A stretch of 64,000 nucleotides of DNA from Isoptericola halotolerans (GTDB lineage Bacteria; Actinomycetota; Actinomycetes; Actinomycetales; Cellulomonadaceae). This document shows positions 14,235 to 29,842 of the stretch, piece by piece. Every line of letters begins with the position of its first letter. Position 1 is the stretch's first letter. Location: positions 124,001 through 188,000 of the forward strand of contig NZ_JABEZU010000002.1 of NCBI RefSeq assembly GCF_013149785.1. The letters run 5' to 3'. Position numbers and translations under genes: made by a program. Below the pieces are notes generated by a model that saw only the letters and a program-made list of their open reading frames with translations, was not told where the DNA came from and searched no databases.

Positions 14235-14923
14235 GCCCCGCCACCACGACGGTCGGGATCCTGGGCGCCGGGAAGGTGGGCACCGTCCTGGCCCGGTTGG
14301 CCGTGGCCGCAGGCTTCCGGGTCCTCATCTCCGGCTCCGGCGACCCCGAGAAGATCGCCCTCACCACGGAGGTCCTCACGCCGGGCGCCCGGCCGGTCTG
14401 GTCCGCCGAGGCCGCAGCGGCCGCGGACGTCGTCGTGCTCGCCCTGCCGCTCAGCAAGTACCGCGACATCCCGGCACAGGAGCTGGAGGGCAGGCTGGTC
14501 GTCGACGCGATGAACCACTGGTGGGAGATCGACGGCCCTCGGGACGCGGTCGTGCCACCCGGACTCTCCTCCAGCGAGCTCGTCCAGCAGTTCCTGACGG
14601 GTGCGCGGGTGGTCAAGGCGTTCAACCACATGGGCTACCACGACCTGGAGGACGGGGCCCGACCCGCGGGGCCGGGGCGCAAGGCGATCGCCGTCGCCGG
14701 CGACGTGCCGGCAGACCTCACCGCCGTGTCGGAGCTGGTCGACGCCCTCGGGTTCGACGCGCTCGCCATCGGCGGCCTCGCAGCGGGTGCCCGGCTCGAA
14801 CCGGGCACACCCGCCTTCGGGGCGAACGTCGACGTCGAGGACCTCCGCGCCCTCACCAGCAGCCCGGTGCTCGTCGCGACGGCCGACGAGCCGCGGGAGC
14901 CGGAGGCCGCGACGTCCGGTTGA
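14231..14923 (+). CDS. NADPH-dependent F420 reductase-like protein
   Basis: The 230-residue product has the Rossmann motif [21 protein letters not shown] at its N-terminus, [22 protein letters not shown] and [18 protein letters not shown]. This is the F420-dependent NADP oxidoreductase-like family, which may reduce F420 or a related carrier. The start overlaps the LLM stop in ATGA, so it is translationally coupled. The MerR-type promoter of the next gene begins inside its stop codon, which marks the operon end. Confidence 0.83.
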
Positions 14924-14950
14924 CCGTGTCCCCACCACACGGTGTCCACT
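14920..14950 (+). promoter_or_regulatory. MerR-type promoter 1 (19-bp spacer), upstream of GNAT gene
   Basis: TTGACC and TCCACT are separated by 19 bp, the long spacer of MerR-activated promoters. The dyad CCGTGT-N7-ACACGG fills the spacer. The -35 overlaps the stop of the preceding gene. The same arrangement occurs at four more places up to 28331. Confidence 0.75.
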
Positions 14951-15042
14951 GGGCGCGCGGCCGACGGTGACGCACTCACGGTGCGGCACCAGGTCCGTGC
15001 CGGAGCACACCGCGGGGAGCGCGCCGAGGAGAGGGCTGTCGC

Positions 15043-15435
15043 ATGACTGAAGCACTGACGGACACGACGGGCACGAGGGTCGCCGTCGGGGTCGAGCTCG
15101 CCGACCCCGTCAGCGCCTACACGATCACGGTCGACGACGGACCTGTCGTCGGCAGGGCGGAGTTCGTCGACAACCCGAAGGCGGAGGGTGAGCGCATCAT
15201 CTTCCACACCGAGGTGGACCAGGACTTCGCCGGACGAGGCCTGGCCAAGATCCTGCTGGAGGAGGCGCTCGCGGACAGCATCCGCCGCGGCCTCACGATC
15301 GTGCCCGTGTGCCCCCTCTTCGCGCGCCACCTCACCCGGCGCGGCGACGAGTTCGTCGCCGCGGGCGGGATGTTCCGCTCGCCGACGCGCGCGGACCTGT
15401 CAGCGGTGACCGTGGCCGTCAGGCACCGGCCATGA
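15043..15435 (+). CDS. small GNAT-type N-acetyltransferase (YjdJ-like)
   Basis: The 130-residue product has a short acetyltransferase core: VGRAEFVDNPKAEGERIIFHTEVDQDFAGRGLAKILLEEALADS split over residues 36-80 with the acetyl-CoA loop FAGRGLA, then VPVCPLFARHL. This is the compact Acetyltransf_CG family without the first strands of full GNATs. A GAGGAGAGG ribosome site precedes the ATG. The leader is about 85 nt from MerR-type promoter 1, so it is probably the single target of that promoter. The acceptor is unknown. Confidence 0.8.
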   Translation: MTEALTDTTGTRVAVGVELADPVSAYTITVDDGPVVGRAEFVDNPKAEGERIIFHTEVDQDFAGRGLAKILLEEALADSIRRGLTIVPVCPLFARHLTRRGDEFVAAGGMFRSPTRADLSAVTVAVRHRP

Positions 15436-15471
15436 GCGGCTCCTCGCTCTGCACGACGCCGTGCGGCGGCA

Positions 15472-15477
15472 TAGCGT
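15472..15477 (+). promoter_or_regulatory. -10 box of the glutaminase operon
   Basis: TAGCGT lies 46 bp before the glutaminase start, giving a leader of about 40 nt with a GGGGAGGAG ribosome site. It is separate from MerR-type promoter 1. Confidence 0.45.
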
Positions 15478-15522
15478 GACCTCGGACGCTGCGCGGGATC
15501 GCGCGGACGGGGAGGAGAGCAC

Positions 15523-16854
15523 ATGCGGTCGATGATCCCCGACTACCTGGACGGTGCGCTGTCCGACGTCGTGGCGGACGACTCCGGCGCGACGGCCGCC
15601 TACATCCCCGAGCTCGCGGCGGCGGACCCCGACCGCCTCGGCGCGGCCTTCGCCACGATCGACGGCCAGGTCTACGGTGCGGGCGACGTCGAGGTGGAGT
15701 TCACCATCCAGTCGATCTCCAAGCCGTTCGCGTACGCGTTGGCGCTGTCCGACCGTGGGTTCGGGCCCGTGCTGGCCAAGGTCGGGGTCGAACCGTCCGG
15801 CGAGGCGTTCAACGAGATCTCCCTGGAGGACGAGACCGGACGTCCGCTCAACCCGATGATCAACGCCGGCGCCATGACGACGCACTCGCTCACCGGCCCG
15901 GACGGCGCCGACCCCGCCCGTCGGGTGGAGCGCGTGATCGACGGCCTGTCAGCCTTCGCGGGCCGCCGGCTGCGGGTCGACGAGGCGACGTGCGCCTCGG
16001 AGATGGAGCACGCGCACCGGAACCTGGCGATCGCGCACATGCTGCGCAGCCACGAGATCCTCACGGAGGACCCTCGGGGCGTGGTGGACGGCTACCTCCG
16101 CCAGTGCTCGGTGCTCGTCACGGCACGGGACCTGGCCATGATGGCCGCCACGCTGGCCAACCGAGGCGTCAACCCGCTCTCCGGTCGGCGGGTGGTCGGC
16201 GAGCGGGTGGTCCGGCAGGTGCTGAGCGTCATGGCCACCTGCGGGATGTACGACGCCGCGGGCGACTGGGCCACGCAGGTCGGCATCCCCGCCAAGAGCG
16301 GCGTCGCCGGCGGGCTCATCGGTGCGCTGCCGGGCCAGCTCGGGATCGCGACGTTCTCGCCCCGGCTGGACGGGCACGGCAACAGCGTCCGGGGCGTGTC
16401 GCTGTTCGAGCGGTTCACCTCGGACATGGGGCTGCACCTGATGGAGGTGCCGCCCGCCGCTCGTGCGGTCGTGCGGTCGAACCGTGCCCGCGGCAGCGCG
16501 GGCGACGCGGTCCGGGTCCTGCGGCTGCAGGGCGGTATCCGCTTCGCCGGGGCGGAACGGTTCGTCCGCGAGGTCATCGACAGCCCGCCGGCCGAGCCGC
16601 GCGTCGTCGTCGACGTCTCCGAGGTCTACTCGATCGACGACGTGTCGCGCCGGATGCTCCTCGAGCTCGTGCGCCGGCTCACCCTGGACGGCCACGACGT
16701 GTACCTCGTCGACCCGGAGGCGGTCGTCCCCGACCCGGATCCGGGGGAGGGCGGCCGGGTCACGGTCGTCGACGACATCGACGAGGTCCCGGTGGTCCGG
16801 GGCGAGGCCGGCGCACGCGACGTCGCGCTCGCCGGTCGGGCGGACGACGCATGA
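15523..16854 (+). CDS. glsA: glutaminase fused to a STAS domain
   Basis: The 443-residue product hydrolyses glutamine to glutamate and ammonia. The glutaminase part (about 1-310) has the serine beta-lactamase-like motif S64-I-S-K67, NPMINAGAM, CSVLVTARDLA and KSGVAGGLIGALPGQLGIATFSPRLD. A C-terminal STAS domain (about 325-420, with VVVDVSEVYSIDDVSRRMLLELVRRL across the loop where anti-sigma antagonists are phosphorylated) follows. Glutaminase-STAS fusions occur in actinobacteria; the STAS part may sense nucleotides or bind a partner. It overlaps the next gene by 4 bp. Confidence 0.9.
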   Translation: MRSMIPDYLDGALSDVVADDSGATAAYIPELAAADPDRLGAAFATIDGQVYGAGDVEVEFTIQSISKPFAYALALSDRGFGPVLAKVGVEPSGEAFNEISLEDETGRPLNPMINAGAMTTHSLTGPDGADPARRVERVIDGLSAFAGRRLRVDEATCASEMEHAHRNLAIAHMLRSHEILTEDPRGVVDGYLRQCSVLVTARDLAMMAATLANRGVNPLSGRRVVGERVVRQVLSVMATCGMYDAAGDWATQVGIPAKSGVAGGLIGALPGQLGIATFSPRLDGHGNSVRGVSLFERFTSDMGLHLMEVPPAARAVVRSNRARGSAGDAVRVLRLQGGIRFAGAERFVREVIDSPPAEPRVVVDVSEVYSIDDVSRRMLLELVRRLTLDGHDVYLVDPEAVVPDPDPGEGGRVTVVDDIDEVPVVRGEAGARDVALAGRADDA

Positions 16855-18230
16855 GCGCCGAGGCGAAGCCCCGGGCGCGTTCCTCGGACCGCGTCAGCGC
16901 GACGGCGCAGGACGGCCGTGACGCACGCCGGCGGGCGCCGCGTCGGCGGGCGGCCGACTGGGACCCGCGCGTGCGGGTCGCGCGGCCCCTCGACCGTCTG
17001 CGCGCCCAGGAGGCGGTCCGCGACCCGCAGCTCCTGCCGCTGCGGTACGCGCGGATGGCGTCGTCCCCGTGGGCCTACCTGCGCGGCGCCGCCGCCGTGA
17101 TGGCCGCCGACCTCGCGGCCGTGCCCCACTCAGGGCTCGACGTCCAGATGTGCGGTGACGCGCACGTGCTGAACTTCGGCTTCTGGGCGTCGCCGGAGCG
17201 GCAGCTGCTGTTCGACGCGCGCGACTTCGACGAGACCCTCCCGGGTCCGTTCGAGTGGGACCTCAAGCGCCTGGTGACCAGCGTCCACGTTCTCGCGGCC
17301 TCCGAAGGGCTCGTCGCGGGGTGCGGCGAGAGCTCGGCCGCTGCTGCGGTCGAGGGATACCGCACGGCGATGCGGCGGTACGCCACCATGGGGGAGCTGG
17401 ACGTCTGGTACGACCGTATCCCGCCCGACGTGCCGCTCAAGCGGCTGTCCTCGCAGCACGCCGAGGCCGCCGTGCGCCTCATCGAGAAGCAGTCCAGGAA
17501 GCGCACCCATCACGGCGCGGCCAAGCAGCTCGCGACCGAGGAGGGCGGGCGGCGGCGCATCGTCCGGGACCCGCTGAAGCGGGTGGACGACGGACTGAGC
17601 CAGGAGCAGCAGGTCGCCGCCTACGAGCAGCTCTACGACACGTACCTCGCCTCCATCCCGCCCCACCTGCGCCGCCTCGTCAGCCGCTTCACCCGGGTCG
17701 ACTCCGTCCGCCAGGTCGTCGGCGTGGGCAGCGTCGGGATGCGCGTCTGGCTGCACCTGCTGGAGGGAGACAGCGGGCAGCAGCCGTTGTTCTCCCAGGT
17801 GAAGCAGGCCACGGCGTCGGTGTACGAGGAGTTCCTCGGTCCGAGCGAGTTCTCGAACCACGGCGAACGCGTGGTCGTCGGCCAACGTCTCATGCAGACC
17901 GCCAGCGACATCTTCCTCGGCCACCTGCGCGTCGACGGCTTCGACTACTACGTGCGGCAGTTCCGCGACATGAAGATCATCCCGCGCGGGGACCAGATCG
18001 CGGGATACCTGCCCCAGTTCGCCTACGCCTGCGGGCACGCCCTGGCCAAGTCCCACGCCCGCAGCGGCGACCCGGCCGCCATCGCCGGCTACATGGGCCG
18101 GGGCGCCGCGTTCGCCGACGGGATCCTCGGGTTCGGACGAGCCTATGCCGAGCAGACGCACGCCGACCACGCCGAGCTGATGGCCGCCGTCGGGAGCGGA
18201 GAGGTGCACGCCGCCGAGCAGGCCTGGTGA
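16851..18230 (+). CDS. DUF2252 protein
   Basis: The 459-residue product belongs to the DUF2252 family, seen by LLPLRYARMASSPWAYLRGAA (about 63-83), CGDAHVLNFGFW, DFDETLPGPFEWDLKRLVTSVH and DYYVRQFRDMKI. The HxN and D-x-D positions resemble a protein-kinase-like or aminoglycoside phosphotransferase-like fold, but the function is unknown. The N-terminal 50 residues are Arg-rich and disordered. It starts in ATGA overlap with glsA, so the two are made together; no functional link is known. Confidence 0.85.
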   Translation: MSAEAKPRARSSDRVSATAQDGRDARRRAPRRRAADWDPRVRVARPLDRLRAQEAVRDPQLLPLRYARMASSPWAYLRGAAAVMAADLAAVPHSGLDVQMCGDAHVLNFGFWASPERQLLFDARDFDETLPGPFEWDLKRLVTSVHVLAASEGLVAGCGESSAAAAVEGYRTAMRRYATMGELDVWYDRIPPDVPLKRLSSQHAEAAVRLIEKQSRKRTHHGAAKQLATEEGGRRRIVRDPLKRVDDGLSQEQQVAAYEQLYDTYLASIPPHLRRLVSRFTRVDSVRQVVGVGSVGMRVWLHLLEGDSGQQPLFSQVKQATASVYEEFLGPSEFSNHGERVVVGQRLMQTASDIFLGHLRVDGFDYYVRQFRDMKIIPRGDQIAGYLPQFAYACGHALAKSHARSGDPAAIAGYMGRGAAFADGILGFGRAYAEQTHADHAELMAAVGSGEVHAAEQAW

Positions 18231-19181
<951 letters not shown>

Positions 19182-19187
19182 GACCAC

Positions 19188-19236
19188 CCGGTGGAGGGTG
19201 GCCGGGCCACCGGCTGCCCTCCACCACCGGTCCCGC
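19188..19236 (+). terminator. hairpin-rich gap between hydrolase and merR
   Basis: CCGGTGGAGGG pairs imperfectly with CCCTCCACCACCGG around a nested GGTGGCC/GGCCACC-like stem. It could partly end the hydrolase transcript, with read-through into merR. There is no clear U-run. Confidence 0.4.
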
Positions 19237-19283
19237 CTGTCGCGGGGACCGGCCCGTTGCTCGGCCGAGCGAGAGGAGCCGAC

Positions 19284-20039
19284 ATGCCATGGAGCACCCG
19301 AGAGCTCGCCGAGCGCGCGGGCACGACGGTGAACACCATCCGCCACTACCACCGCACCGGGCTCCTCGAGGAGCCCGAGCGCCGGTACAACGGCTACAAG
19401 CAGTACGACGTGCAGCACCTGGTGACCCTGCTCCGCATCCGGCGACTCGCCAGTCTCGGTGTGCCGCTCGCCCAGATCGGTGACGTCAGCGCCCGGGCCG
19501 ACAGCACCCCGGAGGTGCTGCGCGCTCTCGACACGGAGCTCCAGCAGGGCATCGCTCGGCTGGAGAAGGCGCGGGCGGACCTCGCAGTCATCCTGCGCGA
19601 CGACGCGCCCGCCGACATCCCGGCCGGCTTCGAGTCGGTGGCGGCCCGGCTCTCGGAGGCGGACCGGTCCATCGTCCACATCTACACCCAGCTCTACGAC
19701 GAGTCGGCGCTGTCCGACATCCAGAAGCTCGTCGAGGCGGACACCGACGGCGTCGGTGCCGAGCTCGACGAGCTGCCCGCCGACGCCGACGAGGACACCC
19801 GGCGCCGGCTGGTGGACAGGCTGGCCGCGACCATCGTGCGCAACAACCGCGACTTCCCGTGGCTGACCGATCCGGCGGCGCACCTGGCCAAGGACCCGTC
19901 GTTCACCGCGCAGACGATGGCCGACGCCCTGAACGACCTGTACAACCCGGCGCAGCTCGATGTCATCGAGCGCGCCCACACCCTGGCGGGCCAGCTCGAG
20001 CAGAACCCGCCCGAGCACGAGGTGAAGGACACCACATGA
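19284..20039 (+). CDS. MerR-family transcriptional regulator (paralog 1)
   Basis: The 251-residue product has an N-terminal MerR winged helix: STRELAERAGTTVNTIRHYHRTGLLEEPER (about 3-32), wing YNGYKQYDVQHLVTLLRIRRL, then a coiled-coil (LDTELQQGIARLEKARADLAVIL) and a C-terminal helical part of about 140 residues with no effector-binding signature recognised (no Cys cluster, no GyrI-like or TipAS pattern). A close paralog is encoded at 27345. It has no MerR-type promoter of its own and may be read from promoter 2. It is coupled to the GPP34 gene by ATGA. It is the first candidate for the regulator of the five promoters. Confidence 0.87.
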   Translation: MPWSTRELAERAGTTVNTIRHYHRTGLLEEPERRYNGYKQYDVQHLVTLLRIRRLASLGVPLAQIGDVSARADSTPEVLRALDTELQQGIARLEKARADLAVILRDDAPADIPAGFESVAARLSEADRSIVHIYTQLYDESALSDIQKLVEADTDGVGAELDELPADADEDTRRRLVDRLAATIVRNNRDFPWLTDPAAHLAKDPSFTAQTMADALNDLYNPAQLDVIERAHTLAGQLEQNPPEHEVKDTT

Positions 20040-20779
20040 CGACTGAGCACCCGGACGACGCGCGGCCCGCGTCGGAGACCGCACCCGAGCCCGCCTCGCG
20101 GTCCACGGGCGGCGAGCCGACCCTGGCGGAGGACCTCCTGCTGCTGCTGTTCCAGCCCGGCTCGGGCACCATCGCCGGCGAGGGGACCTTGTACTACGTC
20201 CTGGCCGGCGCGGTCCTCGCCGACCTGGGCCTCGGCGAGCACGTGCAGACCTCGACGGGCCGGACGGGGTCGCTTCTCGTCGGAGCCGTCGGCGACCGGC
20301 CGCCCGCGGACCCGCTCCTGCGGACGAGCTGGGAGTACGTCGAGGGCAAGCCCCGCGGGGTGCAGACCGTCCTGGCAGCCACCGGCCCGTCGCTGCGCCA
20401 GCCGCTGCTGGACAGGCTGGTCGAACGGGGCGACCTGCGCCGGCGCACCCGCAAGACGCTCGGCCTGTTCACGTCGTCGGTCCTCGAGGAGGGCGACAGC
20501 GGCCGCAGGGCGCAGGTGCTCGGCGAGGTGCGCGCGGTGCTCGTCGACCGGGTCGAGCCGTCCCCGCGCACCGCCGCCCTCGCCGCCCTGCTCTACGGCA
20601 GCGGCACCATGCCCCAGCTCGACCGCGAGATCCCGTGGACCTCACCGGTGATCGCTCGCGCCGAGGAGCTCACGGAGGGCAGCTGGGGAGCGGAGGCCGC
20701 CGCCAAGGCGGTCACCCGCACGGTCACCGCGGTCATCGTCAACAGCGTCGTTGCCGCCGCGGCCGCCCTGCCGCGCTGA
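20036..20779 (+). CDS. GOLPH3/VPS74 (GPP34) family protein
   Basis: The 247-residue product has the GPP34 pattern: TLAEDLLLLLFQPGSGTI (about 30-47), YVLAGAVLADLGL, LLDRLVERGDLRRRTRKTLGLF with the basic beta-hairpin region, and ALAALLYGSGTMPQLD. The eukaryotic relatives bind phosphatidylinositol-4-phosphate on Golgi membranes; bacterial members are common in actinobacteria and unexplained. The first 28 residues are a disordered Pro/Glu tail. It is translationally coupled to merR, which suggests a shared response, perhaps membrane-related. A 28-bp palindrome ends the unit. Confidence 0.85.
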   Translation: MTTEHPDDARPASETAPEPASRSTGGEPTLAEDLLLLLFQPGSGTIAGEGTLYYVLAGAVLADLGLGEHVQTSTGRTGSLLVGAVGDRPPADPLLRTSWEYVEGKPRGVQTVLAATGPSLRQPLLDRLVERGDLRRRTRKTLGLFTSSVLEEGDSGRRAQVLGEVRAVLVDRVEPSPRTAALAALLYGSGTMPQLDREIPWTSPVIARAEELTEGSWGAEAAAKAVTRTVTAVIVNSVVAAAAALPR

Positions 20780-20786
20780 CAGTGCC

Positions 20787-20846
20787 GCCGAGCATGCCCT
20801 GACGGCCCGTCCGGTCCTCCGGACGGGCCGTCAGGGCATGCTCGGC
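20787..20846. terminator. perfect 28-bp palindrome, bidirectional terminator
   Basis: Two 28-nt arms (ends GCCGAGCATGCCCTGACGG and CCGTCAGGGCATGCTCGGC) pair without a mismatch around a TCCT loop. It lies 7 bp after the GPP34 stop and 17 bp from the stop of the convergent PEP mutase-like gene, so it probably ends both transcripts. The stem is far longer than a terminator needs. Confidence 0.85.
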
Positions 20847-20863
20847 CATCAGGTCCGGGACGC

Positions 20864-21634
20864 TCAGTTGAGCGGGGGAGTGTCGGCAGGGACGACCCCG
20901 TCGGCGTAGAGGTCCGTGGCCAGGTCACGCAGCGCCCGCAGGGCGACCCGCTGCGTGAGCGGCCCGTAGGAGACGCGGGCGACGCCCAGCTCCTCGTACT
21001 CGGCCGCGGTCAGTGCCCCGGGCACGCCGATGACGCTGAGCCGACGCGGGCCGAGCCCGGCGACGAGGTGCTGGGTCGACTCACGGTCGAGCTTGCCGGG
21101 CACGAAGACGAGGCTCGCGCCGGCGTCGAGGAACGCCCGACCGCGTTCGACGGCGTCGTCGAGGCTCTCGGACAGCGGACGGTCGCCACCGCGCACCAGC
21201 GCGTCCGTGCGCGCGTTGAGCTGGAACGGGACGCCCTCCTGCTCGGCGACCCGCACGATGGCCTCGACGTTCGCCACCGCCTCGGTCAGCGGCACGAGGC
21301 GGTCCTCGACGTTCGCGCCGACGACACCGACGCCGATCGCGCGACGGACCGACTCGCCCGGGTCGCCGAACCCCGCGTCGAGGTCGGCGGTCACCGGCAG
21401 GTCGGTCGCCTCCACGATCCGCGCCACGGCGGACAGCGCGATGTCGAAGGGGATCTCCCCGTCCGCGAACCCGTGGCTCGCGGCGATGGAGTGCCCGGCG
21501 GTGGCGATCGCGCGCGTACCGGGCAGGTCGGCGACCGTGCGGGTACTGATCGCGTCCCAGACGTTCACGACGCGGAGGATCTCGGGGGCTTCGTGGAGCG
21601 CCTTCAGCGCTTCGGCCTTCGTCAGGGTGCTCAT
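20864..21634 (-). CDS. isocitrate lyase/PEP mutase family enzyme
   Basis: The 256-residue product is a TIM-barrel C-C or C-P bond lyase relative. It shows NVWDAISTRTVADLPGTRAIATAG (about 24-47), the metal-binding TADLDAGFGD, GVVGANVEDR and a Gly-rich C-terminal end. No KKCGH motif of true isocitrate lyase is present, so it is nearer to oxaloacetate/2-methylisocitrate-lyase-like or phosphonomutase-like proteins of unknown substrate. It is divergent from the TAP-like gene; MerR-type promoter 3 lies in the 132-bp gap and points the other way. Confidence 0.85.
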   Translation of the reverse strand: MSTLTKAEALKALHEAPEILRVVNVWDAISTRTVADLPGTRAIATAGHSIAASHGFADGEIPFDIALSAVARIVEATDLPVTADLDAGFGDPGESVRRAIGVGVVGANVEDRLVPLTEAVANVEAIVRVAEQEGVPFQLNARTDALVRGGDRPLSESLDDAVERGRAFLDAGASLVFVPGKLDRESTQHLVAGLGPRRLSVIGVPGALTAAEYEELGVARVSYGPLTQRVALRALRDLATDLYADGVVPADTPPLN

Positions 21635-21659
21635 GGCGACGACGCTACAGCGGCCGCGC

Positions 21660-21690
21660 TTGACCGTGTCCCCGGAACACGCGGTGTGCT
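21660..21690 (+). promoter_or_regulatory. MerR-type promoter 3 (19-bp spacer), upstream of TAP-like hydrolase
   Basis: TTGACC and TGTGCT are separated by 19 bp. The dyad is CCGTGT-N7-ACACGC followed by GG, one change from the perfect copies. It lies 77 bp before the downstream start. Confidence 0.7.
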
Positions 21691-21766
21691 CCTGCCGTGG
21701 GCGGCCGTGCGTGCCGGTGCGGACCGCGCCGCCACCCGCTGCCCTCGACACCTCAAGGAGAAGACG

Positions 21767-23536
21767 ATGTCCCAGCAGACCTCCTCCCCGCCGGGAACCC
21801 GGCGCTCCCGGCGCAGAGCACCGCTCGTCGCCGTCGCCGTCGGAGCTGCCGTCGTCGTCGCGACGGTGGCGACCGTGCCGTGGCCCGACGGCGGCGCCGA
21901 CGGTGCCGCCGGTGCCCCGCCGGTTCCCGACGTCGCGGCGCTGGCGGGGCCCCTCGCCGACCAGGAGCTGGTCTGGGAGGCCTGCGAGTTCAGCGAGGAC
22001 GGTCCCCCCGTCCCGGGCGCCGACGTGTCGAACGTCGAGTGCGCGACCGTCACCGTGCCGCGCGACTGGCTGGACCCCGACCCGGAGCTCACGTGGGAGG
22101 TGCGCATCTCGCACGCCCAGAACATCAGCACCTCGGACCCCGACCACCACACCACGGTCATGGCCCATCCCGGTGGACCGTACGCCTCGGGGCTGTCCTT
22201 CAGCACGGCGGTCCAGCTGTACACCCCGGAGCTGCGGCCGACGACGAACTACGTCAGCTTCGACCAGCGCGGTCTCGGGCAGTCCAGCCAGGTGGGGTGC
22301 GACTACGAGTACGACCCGGCCGGAGGCCCCGCCGCCGCGGCACAGGCGATCGGCGACGCCTGCTCGCAGGACCCCGACGTCGCGACGATGACGACCGAGC
22401 AGACCGCCTACGACATGGACTTCATCCGCCACCTCCTGGGGCTGGAGCAGGTCACCTACGTGGGCTACTCCTACGGCACCTGGTTGGGGACCTGGTACGG
22501 CAACCTGTTCGCCGCCCACATCGAGCGGATGGTCCTCGACTCCGCCACCGACTCGACCCAGAGGTCGATCCAGACGAACTACGACGCGGCCCACGAGGGT
22601 CGGGACCGCCAGTTCCGGCTGCACCTGATGAACTGGATCGCGCGCAACGACGCGACCGTCGGGCTGGGCTCGGACCCGGAAGCGATCTGGGAACGGTACT
22701 TCGCGGCCACGGGCGGGCCCGAGAAGGCGCTCGCGGCGCAGCACGCCTGGAACGCCGCCCGTGGTTCGGTGGCCTTCTCGAGCCCTGCGTTCTACCCGAT
22801 CGCCGGAAGCCTCGTGGCCAGCATCATCACCGAGGCCGAGGCGTCGACAGAGTCGGTCGACCCGCTCGAGCTGGCTGGTCGCATCGTCGACGGCACCGAC
22901 CTGCCGGAGGAGCTGCGCGCGGGTGCGGACGCGGGGCTCGCGCTGCTGAGGGACACCCCGGAGACCGAGCCCGGCGAGCTCGTCCAGGGCACGCACGACT
23001 ACGTCATCGAGTTCACCGCCTGCACGGACGGGCAGTGGGACCAGGGCCTCGAGCACTGGGACGGGTTCCACGAGCGCACCGCGCCGAGCGCACCCCTCAC
23101 GGAGCAGCTCGGCCTGCTCGTCACGCCGACGTGCGCGTTCTGGCCCACGGACTCGGAGATGCCGACCGCGGACGAGCACTTCCCGGAGACCCTCGTGCTG
23201 CAGAGCGAGCTCGACTCGATGACGCCCTACGAGCAGGGTTGGGCCGCGGGTACCGGTCTGCCGAACACCAGCCTGATCGTCGTCGACAACGAGAGCATCC
23301 ATGGTGTCTTCCCCTACGGCACCGAGGAGGTGGACCAGCCCGTGATCGACTTCCTGCTCGGTGGCGACCGGCCGGACCGGACGGTCGTCGCGGCCGGCAA
23401 GCCGTTGCCGCTGGAGGACGTGACGTACGAGTCGTGGTCGCCGATCGACGCGGACGGCGAGCACGACGACGTCCCGCTGTTCACGGACCCGACCATCCCC
23501 GCCGAGACGGGCATCCTGTCGGAGCCGAGCCCCTGA
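21767..23536 (+). CDS. secreted alpha/beta hydrolase, tripeptidyl aminopeptidase-like
   Basis: The 589-residue product has an N-terminal signal or anchor segment (RRRAPLVAVAVGAAVVVATVATV) and an alpha/beta hydrolase core: HPGGPYASG oxyanion region, FDQRGLGQSS, nucleophile elbow GYSYGTWLG (about 238), and a C-terminal TAP-like part with CAFWP, the acid Asp in SELDSMTPYEQG and the His in ESIHGVF. This is the Streptomyces SlpD/Tap-like family that releases N-terminal peptides. AAGGAG lies 7 nt before the ATG. It is controlled by the proposed MerR-type promoter 3. Confidence 0.88.
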   Translation: MSQQTSSPPGTRRSRRRAPLVAVAVGAAVVVATVATVPWPDGGADGAAGAPPVPDVAALAGPLADQELVWEACEFSEDGPPVPGADVSNVECATVTVPRDWLDPDPELTWEVRISHAQNISTSDPDHHTTVMAHPGGPYASGLSFSTAVQLYTPELRPTTNYVSFDQRGLGQSSQVGCDYEYDPAGGPAAAAQAIGDACSQDPDVATMTTEQTAYDMDFIRHLLGLEQVTYVGYSYGTWLGTWYGNLFAAHIERMVLDSATDSTQRSIQTNYDAAHEGRDRQFRLHLMNWIARNDATVGLGSDPEAIWERYFAATGGPEKALAAQHAWNAARGSVAFSSPAFYPIAGSLVASIITEAEASTESVDPLELAGRIVDGTDLPEELRAGADAGLALLRDTPETEPGELVQGTHDYVIEFTACTDGQWDQGLEHWDGFHERTAPSAPLTEQLGLLVTPTCAFWPTDSEMPTADEHFPETLVLQSELDSMTPYEQGWAAGTGLPNTSLIVVDNESIHGVFPYGTEEVDQPVIDFLLGGDRPDRTVVAAGKPLPLEDVTYESWSPIDADGEHDDVPLFTDPTIPAETGILSEPSP

Positions 23537-23569
23537 CGAGCGGATGCACGGGGCCGGCCCGCACGAGAG

Positions 23570-24298
23570 TCAGTCGGCGGGCCGGCCCCCGACGACGGCG
23601 GCCACGGCGTCCAGGATGACGTCCGCGACGGGATCCGGCCGCGAGACCTCCAGCGCGTGCGACCCGTCCCAGATCACCCGGCGCACGACGGCCCCGGCCC
23701 GGTCGGCCATGAGCTGCAGCGCCGCTGTGGGGATGTTCCGGTCCGCGTCGCCGTAGACGAACCAGCTCGGACGGGTCCGCCATGCGGGGACGGCGCTCAC
23801 GAGGACGTCCGTCAGTGCGCTCTCGGCCACCGGGCGTTGCGCGGCGCTCATCGCGGCGGCGAGCGGCGCCGGCACGTCGGCCGCGAGCTGCGCGGCGAAC
23901 GCCTCGCGCCGCACGACGAGCTCCCTCCCGCTCGCGCGGACCGGGTAGCCCGCGACGGTGTCACGGAGCGTGCTCCCCGGGAACCGGCGGGAGAGCTCGT
24001 CGGCGCTCTCGCCATGATCCGGAGCGAAGGCCGACACGTAGACCAGCGCGGTGACGGCGTCGCGCGTGCCCGCCTCGGTGATCACCATCCCGCCGTAGCA
24101 GTGCCCGACGAGGACGATCTCTCCCGGGACCGCGTCCAGGACGTCCGACAGGTAGCGCGCGTCGTCGGCGAGGCCGCGCAGCGGGTTCGCCACGGCGACC
24201 ACCGGCACGTCGTCCTCGTCCAGCCGGGCGATGACCTCGTTCCAGCTCGACGAGTCGGCGAACGCTCCGTGGACCAGCACGACGGTCGGTGTGGGCAC
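23570..24298 (-). CDS. alpha/beta hydrolase with a Cys nucleophile elbow
   Basis: The 242-residue product is a small alpha/beta hydrolase: LVHGAFADSSSW (oxyanion region), the elbow VGHCYGG with Cys67 in place of the usual Ser, a lid with SRRFPGST, the acid Asp in YGDADRNIP and the His in DGSHALEVSRPD. A Cys at this place occurs in dienelactone hydrolases; in this HGAFADSSSW family the residue is normally Ser. GTG 24298 has GGAGGAG 6 nt upstream. MerR-type promoter 4 precedes it on the same strand. The gene is convergent with the TAP-like gene. Confidence 0.85.
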   Translation of the reverse strand: MPTPTVVLVHGAFADSSSWNEVIARLDEDDVPVVAVANPLRGLADDARYLSDVLDAVPGEIVLVGHCYGGMVITEAGTRDAVTALVYVSAFAPDHGESADELSRRFPGSTLRDTVAGYPVRASGRELVVRREAFAAQLAADVPAPLAAAMSAAQRPVAESALTDVLVSAVPAWRTRPSWFVYGDADRNIPTAALQLMADRAGAVVRRVIWDGSHALEVSRPDPVADVILDAVAAVVGGRPAD

Positions 24299-24350
24299 GA
24301 TGCTCCTCCGGTCCGGGGCGCACCGGGGGTGTGGCGCACCTCACACATCC

Positions 24351-24381
24351 AGCCAACGGTGTGTGCCGACCACAGAGTCAA
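24351..24381 (-). promoter_or_regulatory. MerR-type promoter 4 (19-bp spacer), upstream of Cys-type hydrolase
   Basis: On the minus strand TTGACT and TTGGCT are separated by 19 bp. The dyad is weaker (CTCTGT-N7-ACACAC) but keeps the TGT-N7-ACAC core and position. It lies 53 bp before the GTG start. Confidence 0.6.
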
Positions 24382-24414
24382 GGCCCGCATGCCGGTCGAG
24401 GTCCGGGCAGCGCC

Positions 24415-27159
24415 TCAGAGCAGCTCCCGGAGCTGGCGACGGGACGTGATGCCGAGCTTGCGGTAGATGTTGCGCAGGTGGGTCTCGATCGTGCGAGGGC
24501 TCAGGAACAGACCGGCGGCGACCTCTCGTGAGGTCGCCCCGGCCGCCACGAGGCGTGCGATGTGACGTTCGTGGTCGGTCAGCGCCGTGGACGCTCCGAC
24601 GCCGTGTGCGCGCGGATGCTCCCCGGTCGCCCGGAGCTCCCGCGCGGCTCGCTCGGCGAACGCCTCGGCCCCCATGGCGACGAAGGACTCGTGCGCGATG
24701 CGGAGCTGCTCGCGCGCCGCCTGCCGCAGGCCCCGGCGACGCAGCCACTCGCCGTGCAGGAGGTGGGCGCGCGCGAGGTGAGCGGCCATGCGGGTGGCGC
24801 CGAGCTGGTCGATCGCCTCGCGGTAGTGGTCCTCGGCGGCGTCGGCGTCGGCCGCGTCGTCGTCGACGAGGAGTGCCCGAGCCTGGGCGGCCAGGCCCCG
24901 CGCCAGTGGCGTCCCGCACGCGGAGGACAGGGCCGTGAGCTCGTGCGACGCGGAAGAGGCGTCGCTGCGCCGTCCTCCACGGACGGCCCCTTCGACCAGC
25001 TCGTGGAGCGCCAGGCTGCGGACGAAGAGCTCGGGTGACCGGCTCGCGCGCAGCGCGGCGTCGGCGGCGCCGGCGTAGTCACCGCTCGCGTTGCGGGACA
25101 CGGCGAGGGCGTACTGCGCGACGCCGCCGGCCGCACCGGCGTCGTCGGCGACGGACGTCGCGGAGAGCCGCACGACGTCGTCCTCCTGCCCGCGCCACGC
25201 GGAGAGGAGCAGGTCCGCGGAGGCCAGGGGCACGACGCCGGTGGCCCGGGCGACAGCCCTGCTCTCGGCGGCGAGGTCCGCGGACCGCGCGAAGTCGCCC
25301 GTGAGGACCAGCACGCACGCGAGATGGACCAGCGCCGGGGGGAGGGCGGTCAGGGATCCGGAGCCACGGACGCGTTCGACGTTGCGGCACAGGAGGCTGT
25401 GGGTCGTCTCGTCGTCCAGCACCGCGCCGGCGGTGCGGGCCGCGAGCACCAGCCATCGTCCGGTGCGCTCGTGCAGCGGACCCTCGCCGCTCGGGTCGTA
25501 CCGCCGGAAGGTCACCACAGCACGGCCGATCTCGGGGACGGCGTCCGCGAGTCCTCGCGTGTACGCGCTGACCAGCGCGTCCAGGAGAAGATCTGCCGGC
25601 TCGGGCGGGCCGAGCGGGGCCGGAGCGTGCTCCGCGGCCGACGCGACCTCCTGGACGCCCATGCGACCGGGAGCGGCACCGAGGACGACCGCACTGTTCA
25701 ACGCGACCAGGAAGGCCTCACGCGACCGGGTGGGGTCGAGGGGCGCGAGCATCTTCGCGGCGTCGACGAGCCGAGCCGGCGCCCCGTCCCCGGAGGTCGT
25801 GTCGAAGTCGATCATCGCCCGGTACAGGCGGACCCGTGCTCGCTCGAGGTCGTCGAGCGTGCCTGCCTCGGCGACGGCCAGCAGACGCGTCGCCTCGTCC
25901 GGGGCGCCTGCCTCGTGCATGGCCTGCGCAGCCAGGAGAGCGCGTCCTGCCCGGGCACGGGGGTCGGGGGTGAGCTCGGTGGCCCGTTCCAGCAGCGCCG
26001 CAGCGTCCGCGAAGCCGCCGCGGGCGATCGCCCGTTCGGCCGCGGCGACCGACTCGACCGCGACCTCCTCGTCGGTCCCGAGGATCGCGTTCGCACGATG
26101 CCACGCCCGACGATCGGGGTCGGTCCGGGCGTCGAGGGCGCGCGCGAGGACGTCGTGGACCCGCCGTCGGTCGGCCGGGCGGGCCACGCCGTAGATCGCG
26201 GACCGGGCGAGGGGGTGCGGGAAGCGCACGGTCGTGCCGATCTCCAGCAGGCCGGCCTCCTCCGCCGCAGCGGCGGCGTCGGGCCGGATGCCGAGGTGCG
26301 AGGCTGCTGCCCAGAGCAGCGCCGGGTCGCCCGTCGGCTCCGCGGTGGCGATCAGCAGGAGGTGCCGGGTGTCCTGCGGCAGTCCCGCGTACCTCTCGCG
26401 ATAGGCCTCCTCGACGCGGCGAGGTGCCGTCACGGGCACCGCCAGCCCGCCCGCCAGCTGTGTCGCGCTGGTGGCGCGGGGAAGCTCGAGCAGCGCGAGA
26501 GGGTTGCCCCGCGCCTCGGCGACCACACGGTCTCTCAGCACGTCCTCGATCGGCGTGCTGACCGTCGACTCCAGCAGTGCTCTGGCATCGGCGTCCCCCA
26601 GCCCGGTCAGGCTGACGGATCGGATGCCGGCGAGGTACGACCCTCGCTCGTCGGTGAGCTCGCGGGAGGCGACGATCAGCGCCAGCCGGTCCGCGGCGAG
26701 GCGCCGTACCACGAAGGCGACGACCTGCGTCGAGGCGGCGTCGAGCAGGGCGGCGTCGTCGACGAGGCAGAGCAGCGGCCGCTGCTCCGCGCTCTCGGAG
26801 AGCAGCGAGAGGGTGGCCAGCCCGACGAGGAACAGGTCCGGGGGTGGTCCTGACCCCCTGCCCAGGGCGACGTCCAGGGCGCCCCGCTGGGGATCGGGAA
26901 GCGCATCGACATGCTCCAAGAGTGGTGCGCACAGCTGGTGGAGACCGGCGAACGCCAGCTGCTGCTCGGACGCGTTCCCGACGACGCGCACCACGGTGAA
27001 GCCCGCCCGTGCGGCGACGTCGGCGGCGTGGTCGAGCAGGGCCGTCTTGCCGATGCCCGCCTCGCCCAGCACGACGAGCGCTCCGCTGCGTCCGGCGCGG
27101 GCATCGGCCAGGATCTCGTCGACCGTCTCACGTTCCGACCGCCGTCCGAAGAGGTGCAC
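24415..27159 (-). CDS. LuxR-family regulator with AAA ATPase domain (LAL type)
   Basis: This 914-residue regulator starts HLFGRRSERETVDEIL, then Walker A LGEAGIGKTALLD (about 31-43) and Walker B LLCLVDDAALLDAAS, a helical repeat middle resembling TPRs (about 380-830) and a C-terminal LuxR helix-turn-helix LTDHERHIARLVAAGATSREVAAGLFLSPRTIETHLRNIYRKL. LAL regulators activate antibiotic or catabolic genes on binding an inducer. GTG 27159 was chosen for its GGAGG site; longer frames lack similarity. Its end lies 34 bp from promoter 4, so it may be linked with the hydrolase in function. No MerR-type promoter precedes it. Confidence 0.88.
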   Translation of the reverse strand: MHLFGRRSERETVDEILADARAGRSGALVVLGEAGIGKTALLDHAADVAARAGFTVVRVVGNASEQQLAFAGLHQLCAPLLEHVDALPDPQRGALDVALGRGSGPPPDLFLVGLATLSLLSESAEQRPLLCLVDDAALLDAASTQVVAFVVRRLAADRLALIVASRELTDERGSYLAGIRSVSLTGLGDADARALLESTVSTPIEDVLRDRVVAEARGNPLALLELPRATSATQLAGGLAVPVTAPRRVEEAYRERYAGLPQDTRHLLLIATAEPTGDPALLWAAASHLGIRPDAAAAAEEAGLLEIGTTVRFPHPLARSAIYGVARPADRRRVHDVLARALDARTDPDRRAWHRANAILGTDEEVAVESVAAAERAIARGGFADAAALLERATELTPDPRARAGRALLAAQAMHEAGAPDEATRLLAVAEAGTLDDLERARVRLYRAMIDFDTTSGDGAPARLVDAAKMLAPLDPTRSREAFLVALNSAVVLGAAPGRMGVQEVASAAEHAPAPLGPPEPADLLLDALVSAYTRGLADAVPEIGRAVVTFRRYDPSGEGPLHERTGRWLVLAARTAGAVLDDETTHSLLCRNVERVRGSGSLTALPPALVHLACVLVLTGDFARSADLAAESRAVARATGVVPLASADLLLSAWRGQEDDVVRLSATSVADDAGAAGGVAQYALAVSRNASGDYAGAADAALRASRSPELFVRSLALHELVEGAVRGGRRSDASSASHELTALSSACGTPLARGLAAQARALLVDDDAADADAAEDHYREAIDQLGATRMAAHLARAHLLHGEWLRRRGLRQAAREQLRIAHESFVAMGAEAFAERAARELRATGEHPRAHGVGASTALTDHERHIARLVAAGATSREVAAGLFLSPRTIETHLRNIYRKLGITSRRQLRELL

Positions 27160-27344
27160 CGTCCGTCCTCCCTCCGTCGCACGGCGTCGGACCGATGGCG
27201 AAAGGACGACTACGTAGTCCTCACCGATGCCGAGCACGGGTGCTCGATGAGACGTTACCAACGAGGGCGGGCGGATCACCGCGCAGGGGGCGAAACTCAC
27301 CCGGCGGCGGGCGCCCCACCCTGTCGCCGAGCAAGGAGAACGTC

Positions 27345-28157
27345 ATGGTGTGGAGCACGCGGGAGCTGGCGGATCTCGCGGGGACGACCGTGAACACCGT
27401 CCGGCACTACCACGCGGTCGGGCTCCTCGATCTGCCGCAACGGCTGCACAACGGGTACAAGCAGTACCAGGTGAGCCACCTCGTGCGGCTGATCCGTCTG
27501 CGACGGCTGGCCGAGCTGGGTGTGCCGCTCGCACGGATCGAGGAGGTCGACACCCGTCAGCCGTCGGCCCTGCGCTCGGTGGACGCGGAGCTCGAGGCGG
27601 ACATCGAGCGCCTGCAGCGTGCCCGCTCGGACGTCGCCGCGATCCTGCGCGAGAACGCGCCGCCGGACACCCCGCACGGCTTCGAGGCGATCGCCGCCCG
27701 GATGTCGGGCGCAGACCGCTCGCTCGTCCACATCCTCGCCCGCCTGTCCGGGCCCGACGATCGTGCGCACCTGCTGGCCATGGTCGCCGCCGAGCCCGCC
27801 GAGGCACGGCGCCGGTTCGACGACCTGCTGCCGGACGCCACCGAGGCGACCCGTGAGAGCCTCGCCGCGCTCCTGGCGAGCAACGGTCCGCACTGGCGGA
27901 GTCCGGAGGCCGCGCCGCCCAGGGCCAGGGCGCCGCTCCAGACCGCCGTCGCCGAGCTCTACCGGCCTGTCCAGCGCGACGTCCTGCGTCGCGCGTCGTC
28001 CATGGTGAGCCGCTCAGGGGCGCCAGGCGTCGTCGACTCCTCCCGCGCGGAGCCGGCGACCGCTACGGTGTCGGCCCCTGGTGGTCCATCCAGAAGTCGA
28101 CGGCATCGGCACGCGGGTGAGCACTCGTCCGGCCGCCGACAGCACCGAGCGCCATGA
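27345..28157 (+). CDS. MerR-family transcriptional regulator (paralog 2)
   Basis: The 270-residue product is close to the MerR at 19284: WSTRELADLAGTTVNTVRHYHAVGLLDLPQR, wing HNGYKQYQVSHLVRLIRLRRL, a matching coiled-coil and AAILRENAPPDTPHGFEAIAARMSGADRSLVHI. Similarity ends near residue 230. The last 40 residues (Arg/Ser/His-rich) are unlike any MerR and read across the antisense of a decayed coding piece, so the C-terminus is probably an accident of a lost stop. AAGGAG lies 6 nt before the ATG. It is a second candidate regulator of the MerR-type promoters. Confidence 0.83.
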   Translation: MVWSTRELADLAGTTVNTVRHYHAVGLLDLPQRLHNGYKQYQVSHLVRLIRLRRLAELGVPLARIEEVDTRQPSALRSVDAELEADIERLQRARSDVAAILRENAPPDTPHGFEAIAARMSGADRSLVHILARLSGPDDRAHLLAMVAAEPAEARRRFDDLLPDATEATRESLAALLASNGPHWRSPEAAPPRARAPLQTAVAELYRPVQRDVLRRASSMVSRSGAPGVVDSSRAEPATATVSAPGGPSRSRRHRHAGEHSSGRRQHRAP

Positions 28158-28300
28158 CCATCCCCGGTGCGTCCTGCACCGCGGGTCATGGCACGGGTCA
28201 TGACCTGGTCCGTCTGCGACGGCACGGACGACTCGAGGGCCTGTTCGGGGGTCTCGCCCGGGTACAGGTCGAGGTACGCGGGGGCCAGCGTTGCGTCGAC
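28063..28300 (-). pseudogene. decayed minus-strand coding remnant with a frameshift
   Basis: On the minus strand a strongly GC3-biased frame reads AYLDLYPGETPEQALESS... down to about 28190, then the bias moves to the frame one base away, which reads DAPGMVMALGAVGG...DFWMDHQGPTP and stops at TAG 28063-28065. Both halves look like protein. The upstream part is missing: promoter 5 and the AhpD-like gene begin there. The family was not recognised. It overlaps the tail of the MerR paralog 2 frame. Confidence 0.4.
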
Positions 28301-28331
28301 TTGACCCTGTGCCGGGAACACGGTCTTGAGT
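28301..28331 (+). promoter_or_regulatory. MerR-type promoter 5 (19-bp spacer), leaderless, upstream of AhpD-like/pirin genes
   Basis: TTGACC and TTGAGT are separated by 19 bp, with dyad CCCTGT-N7-ACACGG. The -10 ends 6 nt before the downstream ATG, so this MerR-type promoter would make a leaderless mRNA. Confidence 0.72.
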
Positions 28332-28337
28332 CGTGCC

Positions 28338-28835
28338 ATGAGTGAGCTCGCCGAACGGTCCACGCGTCCGTTCATGGACAAGACCATGCCTGAGGTGTGG
28401 CGCGCCGTCGTGGCCTTCTCGGTGGTGACACGCGAGGCGGCCGAGCAGGGAGGGCTCCTCGCGCAGGAGTCCGAGCTGATCAAGGTGCGGGCGTCCCAGC
28501 TCAACGGCTGCTCGTTCTGCCTGGACCTCCACGGTCGGGAGGCGAGGCAGGCCGGCGTCCCGCAGCAGAAGCTGGACGTGCTGGCGAGCTGGCGAGAGAC
28601 CGGCGTGTTCGGCGACCGGGAACGGGCCGTGCTCGCCGTGGCCGAGGCGGCGACGGTCCTCCCGCTCGACGACAGGGCCGCTGCCGAGCTGTCCGGCGCC
28701 CGGGTCGTCCTCGGCGACGCGACGTTCGCGGCCGCCGAGTGGGTCGCCGTCGCGATCAACGCCTTCAACAGGGTCTCCGTCCTCAGCGGGCACCCGGTGA
28801 GGCCGCGCGATGCCGACGGAGGGCTCGTGCGATGA
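28338..28835 (+). CDS. carboxymuconolactone decarboxylase / AhpD-like protein
   Basis: The 165-residue product has the AhpD-type redox motif in KVRASQLNGCSFCLDLHGREAR: two Cys spaced C-x2-C with His three residues after the second. Such proteins are alkylhydroperoxidase-like thiol enzymes or, in CMD relatives, decarboxylases; the CxxC form favours peroxidase activity. The ATG at 28338 was chosen because the -10 of promoter 5 ends 6 nt before it; an in-frame ATG at 28326 lies in that -10. It overlaps the pirin gene by 4 bp. Confidence 0.87.
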   Translation: MSELAERSTRPFMDKTMPEVWRAVVAFSVVTREAAEQGGLLAQESELIKVRASQLNGCSFCLDLHGREARQAGVPQQKLDVLASWRETGVFGDRERAVLAVAEAATVLPLDDRAAAELSGARVVLGDATFAAAEWVAVAINAFNRVSVLSGHPVRPRDADGGLVR

Positions 28836-29842
28836 CCAACCTCGACAGCCGCCCCGAGCTGGAGGTCCTCGGGAGCGGGCGGCCCGGCGTCGCCGAGGGG
28901 CACGCAGCCGTCCAGGTCCTGGAACCCCGCCCGGTGGCGCTCGGCGGACCGCGCGCCATGAACGTGCACCGCACGCTGCCCCAGCGGGAGCGGTCGTTGG
29001 TGGGGGCGTGGTGCTTCCTGGACCACTTCGGCCCCGACGACGTCGCCGAGACCGGCGGCATGCTGGTGCCACGGCATCCGCACACCGGGCTGGCGACGGT
29101 GTCCTGGCTGTTCACGGGTCGTGTGGAGCATCTCGACTCCGGCGGGAACGCGGCGTCCGTCGTTCCCGGGTCCCTCAACCTGATGATCGCGGGGCGTGGC
29201 ATCACCCACCAGGAGATCAGCGACCCAGGGACCACGGTCCTGCACGGTGTGCAGCTCTGGTACGCGCTGCCCGAGGAGACACGCTTCGGTGCGAACGCGT
29301 TCGAGCGCTACACGCCGGAGCCCGTCCGGCTGCCGGGGGCGACCGCCCGTGTGTTCCTCGGAGAGCTCCTGGGCTCGGTGTCGCCGGTCGCGACGCGCAC
29401 GCCCGACCTGCTGGGCGCCGAGCTGGTCCTGGAGCCGGGGGGTCGTGCGTCCCTGGACGTCCGACCCGACTTCGAGCACGCCGTGCTCGCCGAGAGCGAC
29501 GAGGTCGTGGTCAACGGGACCACCGTGGGACATCGGTCCCTCGCGTACCTCCCGCCCGGGGCGGACTCGCTGGTCGTCACGGCGGGCGCCGCGGGCGCCC
29601 GGGTGATCCTCCTGGGCGGCGTGCCGCTGGGCGAGCAGATCGTGATGTGGTGGAACTTCGTCGGGCGCGACCACGACGAGATCGCCGCGTTCCGACGCCG
29701 CTACCAGGCGGAGCTCGGGTTCGAGCCCGCCGACCCCCGGGACGCTGGAGCGCCGGAGCTGTTCGGTCCGTTCCCCCCGGGGCAGCCGCGAGCGCTTCCC
29801 GCTCCACCCTTGCCGACCGTCAGGCTGCGCCCGCGGGAGTGA
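28832..29842 (+). CDS. pirin-family bicupin
   Basis: The 336-residue product has the pirin N-terminal cupin with the metal-binding pattern VPRHPHTGLATVSWLFTG (about 69-86) and IAGRGITHQEIS, and a C-terminal pirin_C part (from about 200: GAELVLEPGG...). Bacterial pirins may have quercetin dioxygenase activity or modulate metabolism. It begins in ATGA overlap with the AhpD-like gene, so both are made from promoter 5. Pairing with a peroxidase-like protein suggests a response to electrophiles or oxidants, which is inference. Confidence 0.87.
   Translation: MTNLDSRPELEVLGSGRPGVAEGHAAVQVLEPRPVALGGPRAMNVHRTLPQRERSLVGAWCFLDHFGPDDVAETGGMLVPRHPHTGLATVSWLFTGRVEHLDSGGNAASVVPGSLNLMIAGRGITHQEISDPGTTVLHGVQLWYALPEETRFGANAFERYTPEPVRLPGATARVFLGELLGSVSPVATRTPDLLGAELVLEPGGRASLDVRPDFEHAVLAESDEVVVNGTTVGHRSLAYLPPGADSLVVTAGAAGARVILLGGVPLGEQIVMWWNFVGRDHDEIAAFRRRYQAELGFEPADPRDAGAPELFGPFPPGQPRALPAPPLPTVRLRPRE

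Follow-up and report, generated by a model that had tools for sequence, protein, structure and literature searches.

We analyzed a 64,000-nucleotide stretch of the genome of Isoptericola halotolerans ("the window"; contig NZ_JABEZU010000002.1, positions 124,001 to 188,000), in which one operator-promoter unit occurs five times around two paralogous genes for MerR-type regulators, MerR1 and MerR2. A preliminary description, made without database searches, had placed the units at 14920, 18258, 21660, 24351 (minus strand), and 28301 and had proposed that they define a MerR regulon. Reading the sequence directly, we located all five at these positions. When aligned, they share a -35 box, TTGAC(C/T); a dyad, which in its most complete version reads ACCGTGT-N7-ACACGGT; and a -10 hexamer of the form T....T, which lies 19 bp from the -35 box in every copy.

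The operator-promoter sites and the genes behind them

Operator-promoter 1 (14920..14950, plus strand) has TTGACC, the full dyad ACCGTGT-N7-ACACGGT, and the -10 hexamer TCCACT, and it is predicted to drive the gene for a small GNAT acetyltransferase (15043..15435, plus; PF14542). Behind this gene and in the same direction lie genes for a glutaminase with a C-terminal STAS domain (15523..16854, plus) and a DUF2252 protein (16851..18230, plus; PF10009), which are possible further targets of operator 1. In relatives, an ortholog of each lies directly behind its own site (a glutaminase of 77% identity in locus L085 and a DUF2252 protein of 77% identity in L106), which suggests that both genes are members of the regulon.

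Operator-promoter 2 (18258..18288, plus) has TTGACC, the dyad, and TCTACT as the -10 hexamer. It is predicted to drive hydrolase1, an alpha/beta hydrolase (18339..19181, plus; PF00561). After about 100 bp that contain no exact site, hydrolase1 is followed in the same direction by MerR1, the proposed activator (19284..20039, plus), and by a GPP34-family protein (20036..20779, plus; PF05719), whose start codon overlaps the MerR1 stop codon (ATGA). Because of this gene order, operator 2 probably controls MerR1 and the GPP34 gene as well as hydrolase1.

Operator-promoter 3 (21660..21690, plus; TTGACC, GTGT-N7-ACAC, -10 TGTGCT) is predicted to drive a TAP-like alpha/beta hydrolase (21767..23536, plus; PF00561 and PF08386), which is probably secreted, judging by eye from its hydrophobic N terminus. 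We rejected a divergent PEP-mutase gene as the target of this operator, since transcription from this promoter would run toward the TAP gene. Operator-promoter 4 (24381..24351, minus; TTGACT, CTGT-N7-ACA, -10 TTGGCT) is predicted to drive hydrolase2, another alpha/beta hydrolase (23570..24298, minus; PF12697), in whose translation we read a GHCYG nucleophile elbow. Between operator 4 and MerR2 lies the gene for a LuxR/LAL-type regulator, a large AAA protein (24415..27159, minus).

MerR2 (27345..28157, plus) has no exact site directly upstream. The preliminary description had called the two regulators paralogs, and they are 47% identical over 234 positions. Operator-promoter 5 (28301..28331, plus; TTGACC, CTGT-N7-ACACGGT, -10 TTGAGT) precedes a carboxymuconolactone decarboxylase (CMD)/AhpD-core protein (28338..28835, plus; PF02627) and a pirin (28832..29842, plus; PF02678/PF05726) that overlaps the CMD stop codon. 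The Pfam matches bear out the targets that had been named from the translations, namely the GNAT, the hydrolase, the TAP-like hydrolase, the second hydrolase, and the CMD/AhpD-core and pirin pair.

The repetition of the unit is exact and far beyond chance. Five exact matches to TTGACYNTGTN7ACA lie in the window, and the mean over 100 dinucleotide shuffles was 0.00. Across the 3.97-Mb genome, there are just eight exact matches to TTGACY-N-TGT-N7-ACA: the five in the window and three others (C1:192236, C2:91164, and C2:832701). When the -10 T....T was also required, eight matches remained, versus none for the reversed control. The preliminary description had considered that the motif might be equally common at random positions in the genome, and these counts show that it is not. 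All eight sites have the 19-bp spacer that had been claimed for the window, and all have the start of an open reading frame (ORF) within about 150 bp. The complete form CCGTGT-N7-ACACGG, which had been ascribed to the best copies, occurs within the window only at 14920 and 18258. Outside the 31-bp core, the flanks of the eight sites are about 30% alike, as compared to 66% for the core, so the sites are not copies of a mobile repeat.

The three sites elsewhere in the genome precede a PHB-depolymerase-like esterase, a CPBP-type membrane protein, and a short-chain dehydrogenase (named by reading their translations); the CPBP-type gene has a counterpart of 75% identity in locus L133 that is also site-driven. 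With these three sites and many more in other actinobacteria, the regulon is larger than was first seen. A sixth, weaker candidate in the window (63017-62987, minus) has two mismatches and keeps a -10 hexamer at 19 bp; the ORF downstream of it resembles a small membrane protein.

Conservation and promoter anatomy across genera

The site is conserved upstream of orthologs for four of the five predicted targets; for the TAP gene, we found only distant site-driven relatives (about 28-29% identity), so there the expectation of conservation holds only at the level of the family. GNAT orthologs have the site upstream in L082 (86% identity) and L098 (62% identity). Hydrolase1 orthologs have it in seven other genomes (L040/L099, L042/L100, L046, L051, L094, L096/L105, and L133), and CMD orthologs have it before them in four (L081, L083, L086, and L099). 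Hydrolase2 homologs are preceded by a site in L099 and L112.

To describe the promoter more broadly, we used 80 named loci, which are the best 80 of at least 559 that contain MerR1 relatives. They come from Isoptericola, Promicromonospora, Myceligenerans, Agromyces, Microbacterium, Arthrobacter, Actinoplanes, Asanoa, Nonomuraea, and other genera. These loci contained 141 sites in 72 of the 80, a count that includes a few sites seen twice in overlapping loci (L137/L139). Pooling with other loci gave 180 sites with distinct sequences, although these sequences share common ancestry.

The spacing of the unit is strict. With half-site gaps of 3, 5, 6, 8, or 10-13, no sites were found in the 80 loci. 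A gap of 4 gave 8 sites and a gap of 9 gave 16, and 6 of the 8 and all 16 were the same sites in another register. Because the -10 hexamer was not part of the search pattern for the 80 loci, its presence was a blind test: in 137 of 141 sites and in 174 of 180 distinct sites, a hexamer that begins and ends with T lies 19 bp from the -35 box. At spacers of 15-18 and 20-23, T....T occurred at most 3 times; it occurred 18 times at a spacer of 14 and 25 times at 24, both of which reuse one of the same Ts. Alternative -10 registers were rejected since TANNNT was absent from all 180 distinct sites at spacers of 15-22, which leaves the weak T....T at 19 bp as the only consistent -10 hexamer.

Start codons also fit this arrangement. 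Counting from the start of the -35 box, ATG begins at offset 37 in 19 of the 180 distinct sites and at offset 38 in 8, versus 0, 0, 1, and 2 at offsets 35, 36, 39, and 40. Since this excess coincides with the expected start of the transcript, some of the targets look leaderless. The CMD gene would be one of them, with its predicted transcription start on the ATG at 28338. ATG counts also rise broadly at offsets of about 66-86.

The second position of the -10 hexamer (-11) was A in none of the 141 sites and in just 1 of the 180 distinct sites, while A occurs at about 7-33% of flanking positions outside the unit. According to a review, base -11 is the one that is disrupted when melting starts (PMC9909328). 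In PpbrA, a MerR-type promoter with the -10 hexamer TTAAAT, a change to TATAAT raised activity (PMC3431237). Given the role of -11 in melting and this precedent, it is plausible that a poor base is retained at this position to keep the promoters silent.

Called targets lie behind 116 of the 141 sites, with genes called by a simple codon-position score. They include a cluster of 27 small membrane proteins, of which few match PF06695, and those score under its cut-off. The others include 14 MerR proteins, 11 GPP34 proteins, 11 TAP-like hydrolases, 5 hydrolase1-like proteins, 5 RidA-like proteins, 4 ABC ATPases, and many that occur singly. The 14 MerR genes belong to the MerR1 branch, which points to autoregulation. 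(The Pfam scan covered 113 of the 116 targets, omitting one duplicate, one ORF antisense to merR, and one ORF cut by the end of a contig; one long protein was shortened to 600 amino acids.) Taken as a whole, the target set would fit a response to an organic toxicant.

The MerR branch and its recognition helix

We asked how the motif is distributed relative to MerR1 homologs. In a sample of 200 genomes from the family, 36 contain a MerR1 homolog (E <= 1e-30). The strict motif was found in 23 of the 200 genomes, all of them among the 36, and its reversed control was found in none. The relaxed motif with the -10 hexamer gave 86 matches, versus 1 for the reversed pattern, and these lie in 32 genomes: 27 of the 36 with MerR1 and 5 of the 164 others (p ~7e-21). 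In the same genus, this relaxed motif is present in 4 of 4 MerR-positive genomes and in 0 of 14 others. Furthermore, the site adjoins the merR gene in loci that differ otherwise, often less than 100 bp before or behind it.

Across the class (296 genomes), a MerR1 homolog was found in 22 genomes, the motif in 10, and both in 7. The split follows the identity of the best homolog: at 50% or more, all 7 genomes have the motif, and at 49% or less, none of the 15 does. Identity alone is not decisive: genome G122 has a homolog of 63% identity and no site, and a third paralog in I. halotolerans itself (C2:455810; 56% identity) has no such site nearby. Both lack the asparagine discussed next.

In MerR1 and MerR2, the recognition helices read VNTIRHYH and VNTVRHYH, with asparagine (Asn17) at the second position of the helix. 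The helix was readable in 51 of the 57 family homologs (not in the other six), and 35 of these 51 also have asparagine. A site lies within 10 kb of 34 of the 35 merR genes that encode Asn17, versus 2 of the 16 that encode lysine, arginine, or serine (p ~1e-9). By genome, the motif is present in 26 of 26 family genomes with an Asn-type protein and in 6 of 174 others. Among fetched loci, a site was found within 2.5 kb of 71 of 92 Asn-type genes and 0 of 8 others; this comparison is biased by the peptide patterns used for fetching, and the 51 readable family homologs are the fair version. A correlation study of the MerR family found that residue 2 of the recognition helix is the most correlated with the operator (PMC5045206), and position 14 in its table would be residue 17 here. 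Of the sequence-level arguments that the MerR protein would read the dyad itself, the co-variation of Asn17 with the site is the strongest. As to the expected co-occurrence of motif and MerR genes, it was found in the family, together with this co-variation, and class-wide it extends only to the nearer branch.

The third paralog, whose recognition helix is VRSVRLYH, was left out of the regulon because it has no such site nearby. Its neighbours are a CPBP-type gene, with which it is arranged tail to tail, and, close by, a quinone-reductase-like gene (L179, C2:453000-459500; names from translations). The operator that it uses may be a sister of the one described here. Another site, TTGACCTTGTCAC-N-GTGACAGG, is related yet distinct and also has 19-bp spacing; it was seen at G140:C31:28457, G155:C104:49140, and G425:C12:380153, in genomes with no MerR1 homolog, and may belong to another MerR protein. 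Also, at about 54600-55100 of the window (minus strand), a MerR-like protein has two MerR helix-turn-helix matches in one frame (C2:178618 and C2:179017), a tandem arrangement that looked unusual.

Both MerR1 and MerR2 have the winged-helix DNA-binding domain of the MerR family (PF13411 and PF00376, above cut-off). The full-length model of MerR1 has a predicted local distance difference test score (pLDDT) of 84 and a predicted template modeling score (pTM) of 0.53, and its best fold match is CueR. A long predicted helix (residues 72-105), the putative dimerization helix, is followed by the effector region. The C-terminal domain (residues ~108-243) is predicted to be all helical (mean pLDDT 90, pTM 0.81).

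The proteins do not look like metal sensors. Cysteine is absent from 19 of 20 aligned sequences (MerR1, MerR2, and 17 of 18 relatives; the remaining relative has a single cysteine), which implies that there is no cysteine metal site. Against the NCBIfam equivalogs for metal sensors of the CueR/CadR-PbrR/ZntR branch, the best score was 45.9 bits, versus a cut-off of 150.85. We therefore rejected metal sensing. Lacking cysteine, MerR1 and MerR2 also have no SoxR-type [2Fe-2S] cluster.

We compared 49 C-terminal domains to Pfam and found no convincing family: HEAT_2 matched 9 of the 49 (best E = 0.0004), and other families matched one member each. Neither TipAS (PF07739) nor a GyrI-like effector domain was found in these 49 domains at E up to 1. 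Searches with the C-terminal domain gave no convincing sequence relative in the PDB (best E = 0.23) and no significant fold match (best E = 1.7). Thus, a TipAS or GyrI effector is unsupported by the Pfam, PDB sequence, and fold searches.

A proposed regulon and its relation to known MerR systems

We consider it highly probable that the five sites in the window and the three elsewhere are operator-promoters of a single MerR-type regulon that works by ligand-driven distortion of the spacer. The rarity of the motif, its conservation at orthologs, its co-occurrence with the MerR branch, and its co-variation with Asn17 all support the regulon that had been proposed. In the proposed mechanism, a dimer of MerR1 and/or MerR2, from the branch that carries asparagine at position 2 of the recognition helix, would sit on the 21-bp dyad ACC(C/G)TGT-N7-ACA(C/G)GGT inside the over-long 19-bp spacer. 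As long as no ligand is bound, the -35 and -10 boxes would be out of phase and the promoter silent. An inducer, probably organic, would be bound by the all-helical C-terminal domain, and the ligand-bound dimer would then kink and untwist the spacer so that the housekeeping sigma factor could engage both boxes. The hydrolase, membrane-protein, and CMD/pirin genes would be turned on together with the regulator's own operon. The promoters with sites very probably form one chemically induced gene set.

Several observations weigh against this reading. Eight of the 80 named loci have no site, and behind 25 of the 141 sites no ORF was called. More ATGs begin at offset 29 than at any other single offset (26 sites, 11 of them open); we take these ATGs as a by-product of the -10 sequence, rather than as starts, because they overlap the last bases of the -10 hexamer. 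The near absence of A at -11, where A is normal, is not predicted by the standard picture. Nine of the 36 MerR1-positive family genomes lack the motif, and the relaxed motif also occurs in five family genomes that have no MerR1. Class-wide, only 7 of 22 homolog-positive genomes have the site, so the link between site and MerR holds for the nearer branch; and 3 of 10 motif-bearing genomes have no MerR1 homolog. Finally, two MerR proteins without Asn17 are encoded near a site (at 46 bp in G105 and at 2.7 kb in G031).

An alternative is that another regulator, such as the LuxR/LAL protein at 24415-27159 or a different MerR, binds the sites, with MerR1 and MerR2 as mere neighbours. That similar motifs occur without MerR1 in five family and three class genomes fits this idea, as do the LAL-like proteins behind sites in two loci of the Actinoplanes group (L166 and L168), which make LAL-type genes part of the neighbourhood. 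We nevertheless think it improbable, because the motif stays beside merR while other genes change, often within 100 bp; because it tracks the recognition-helix residue (34/35 versus 2/16); and because MerR promoters are described as having a dyad within a spacer of 19-20 bp (PMC9909328). There is also little chance that MerR1 and MerR2 act only as repressors, with the long spacer as a relic and transcription starting elsewhere. Poor -10 boxes that almost never have A at -11 would suit such a model. However, the 19-bp spacing and both outer Ts of the -10 hexamer are kept in 174 of 180 sites, with an excess of ATGs at the matching +1, and a fixed but misphased -10 hexamer would not be expected to be conserved under pure repression.

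The idea that the unit is a chance pattern or a dispersed repeat of high-GC DNA draws on the looser pattern: with up to two mismatches, there are 82 matches in the genome, little above the 50 for the reversed control. Allowing mismatches makes the pattern much less specific, which leaves the exact matches as the only informative ones. Given the empty shuffles and unrelated flanks, we rejected both chance and a dispersed repeat as exceedingly improbable; the conservation upstream of orthologs, the restriction of the strict motif to MerR1-positive family genomes, and the tracking of Asn17 contradict them as well.

Beyond the regulon itself, we tentatively suggest a broader reading, which we hold with less than even confidence: that these proteins form a distinct branch of chemical-sensing MerR regulators, marked by a new all-helical effector fold and by asparagine as the second residue of the recognition helix. 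Such a branch would run multi-target detoxification regulons in many actinobacterial genera from promoters that lack the -11A where melting starts and so depend strictly on the regulator's distortion of the spacer. The operator signature derived from the site counts, TTGACCSTGTNNNNNNNACASGGTNTYNACT, can be used to predict the regulon of this widespread branch, and its link to a single specificity residue can be tested by swapping that residue. If the inducer were found, it would reveal a chemical that many actinobacteria monitor, and an inducible expression tool for high-GC hosts could be built from the sensor and its promoter. The near absence of -11A over 180 sites would allow a direct test of how far MerR distortion replaces normal promoter melting.

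The closest known systems in promoter geometry are CueR and CadR-PbrR, which share the 19-bp spacer (operators in PMC5045206, PMC1526738, and PMC12301328) and also have a 21-bp dyad centred 7 bp from the -35 box (PMC5045206). The CadR consensus, AACCCTGTAGTTACTACAGGGTT, shares the outer ACCCTGT-N7-ACAGGGT with the sites described here (PMC12301328). Unlike those regulators, MerR1 and MerR2 have no cysteine metal site and a longer C-terminal domain, and their predicted regulon has multiple targets and is rich in hydrolases rather than metal pumps. The specificity residue differs too: the available table lists E, K, D, A, Q, V, R, and H (PMC5045206), whereas here it is asparagine. In their proposed general plan, MerR1 and MerR2 would resemble TipA/AlbA and BmrR, which join a MerR helix-turn-helix to a large domain for organic ligands, activate themselves, and have resistance-type targets (PMC7762955 and PMC9909328); the N-terminal domain of TipAL is among the PDB sequence matches. 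Unlike in TipA or BmrR, the C-terminal domain here has no TipAS or GyrI-like match, and its similarity to the drug-binding domain of AlbA reaches only E = 5 and a template modeling score of 0.35. The PbrR-controlled PpbrA is another 19-bp MerR-type promoter without A at -11 (PMC3431237), but it is a single promoter, while here the missing -11A is close to a rule. Among the literature matches listed, none describes this operator or regulon, with most subscription papers outside the coverage. The promoter mechanics proposed here are those of classical MerR promoters; what sets the case apart is a MerR branch without a description among those matches, a sensor domain with no convincing match in Pfam or the PDB, a broad set of targets, and a consistent anomaly in the -10 hexamer.

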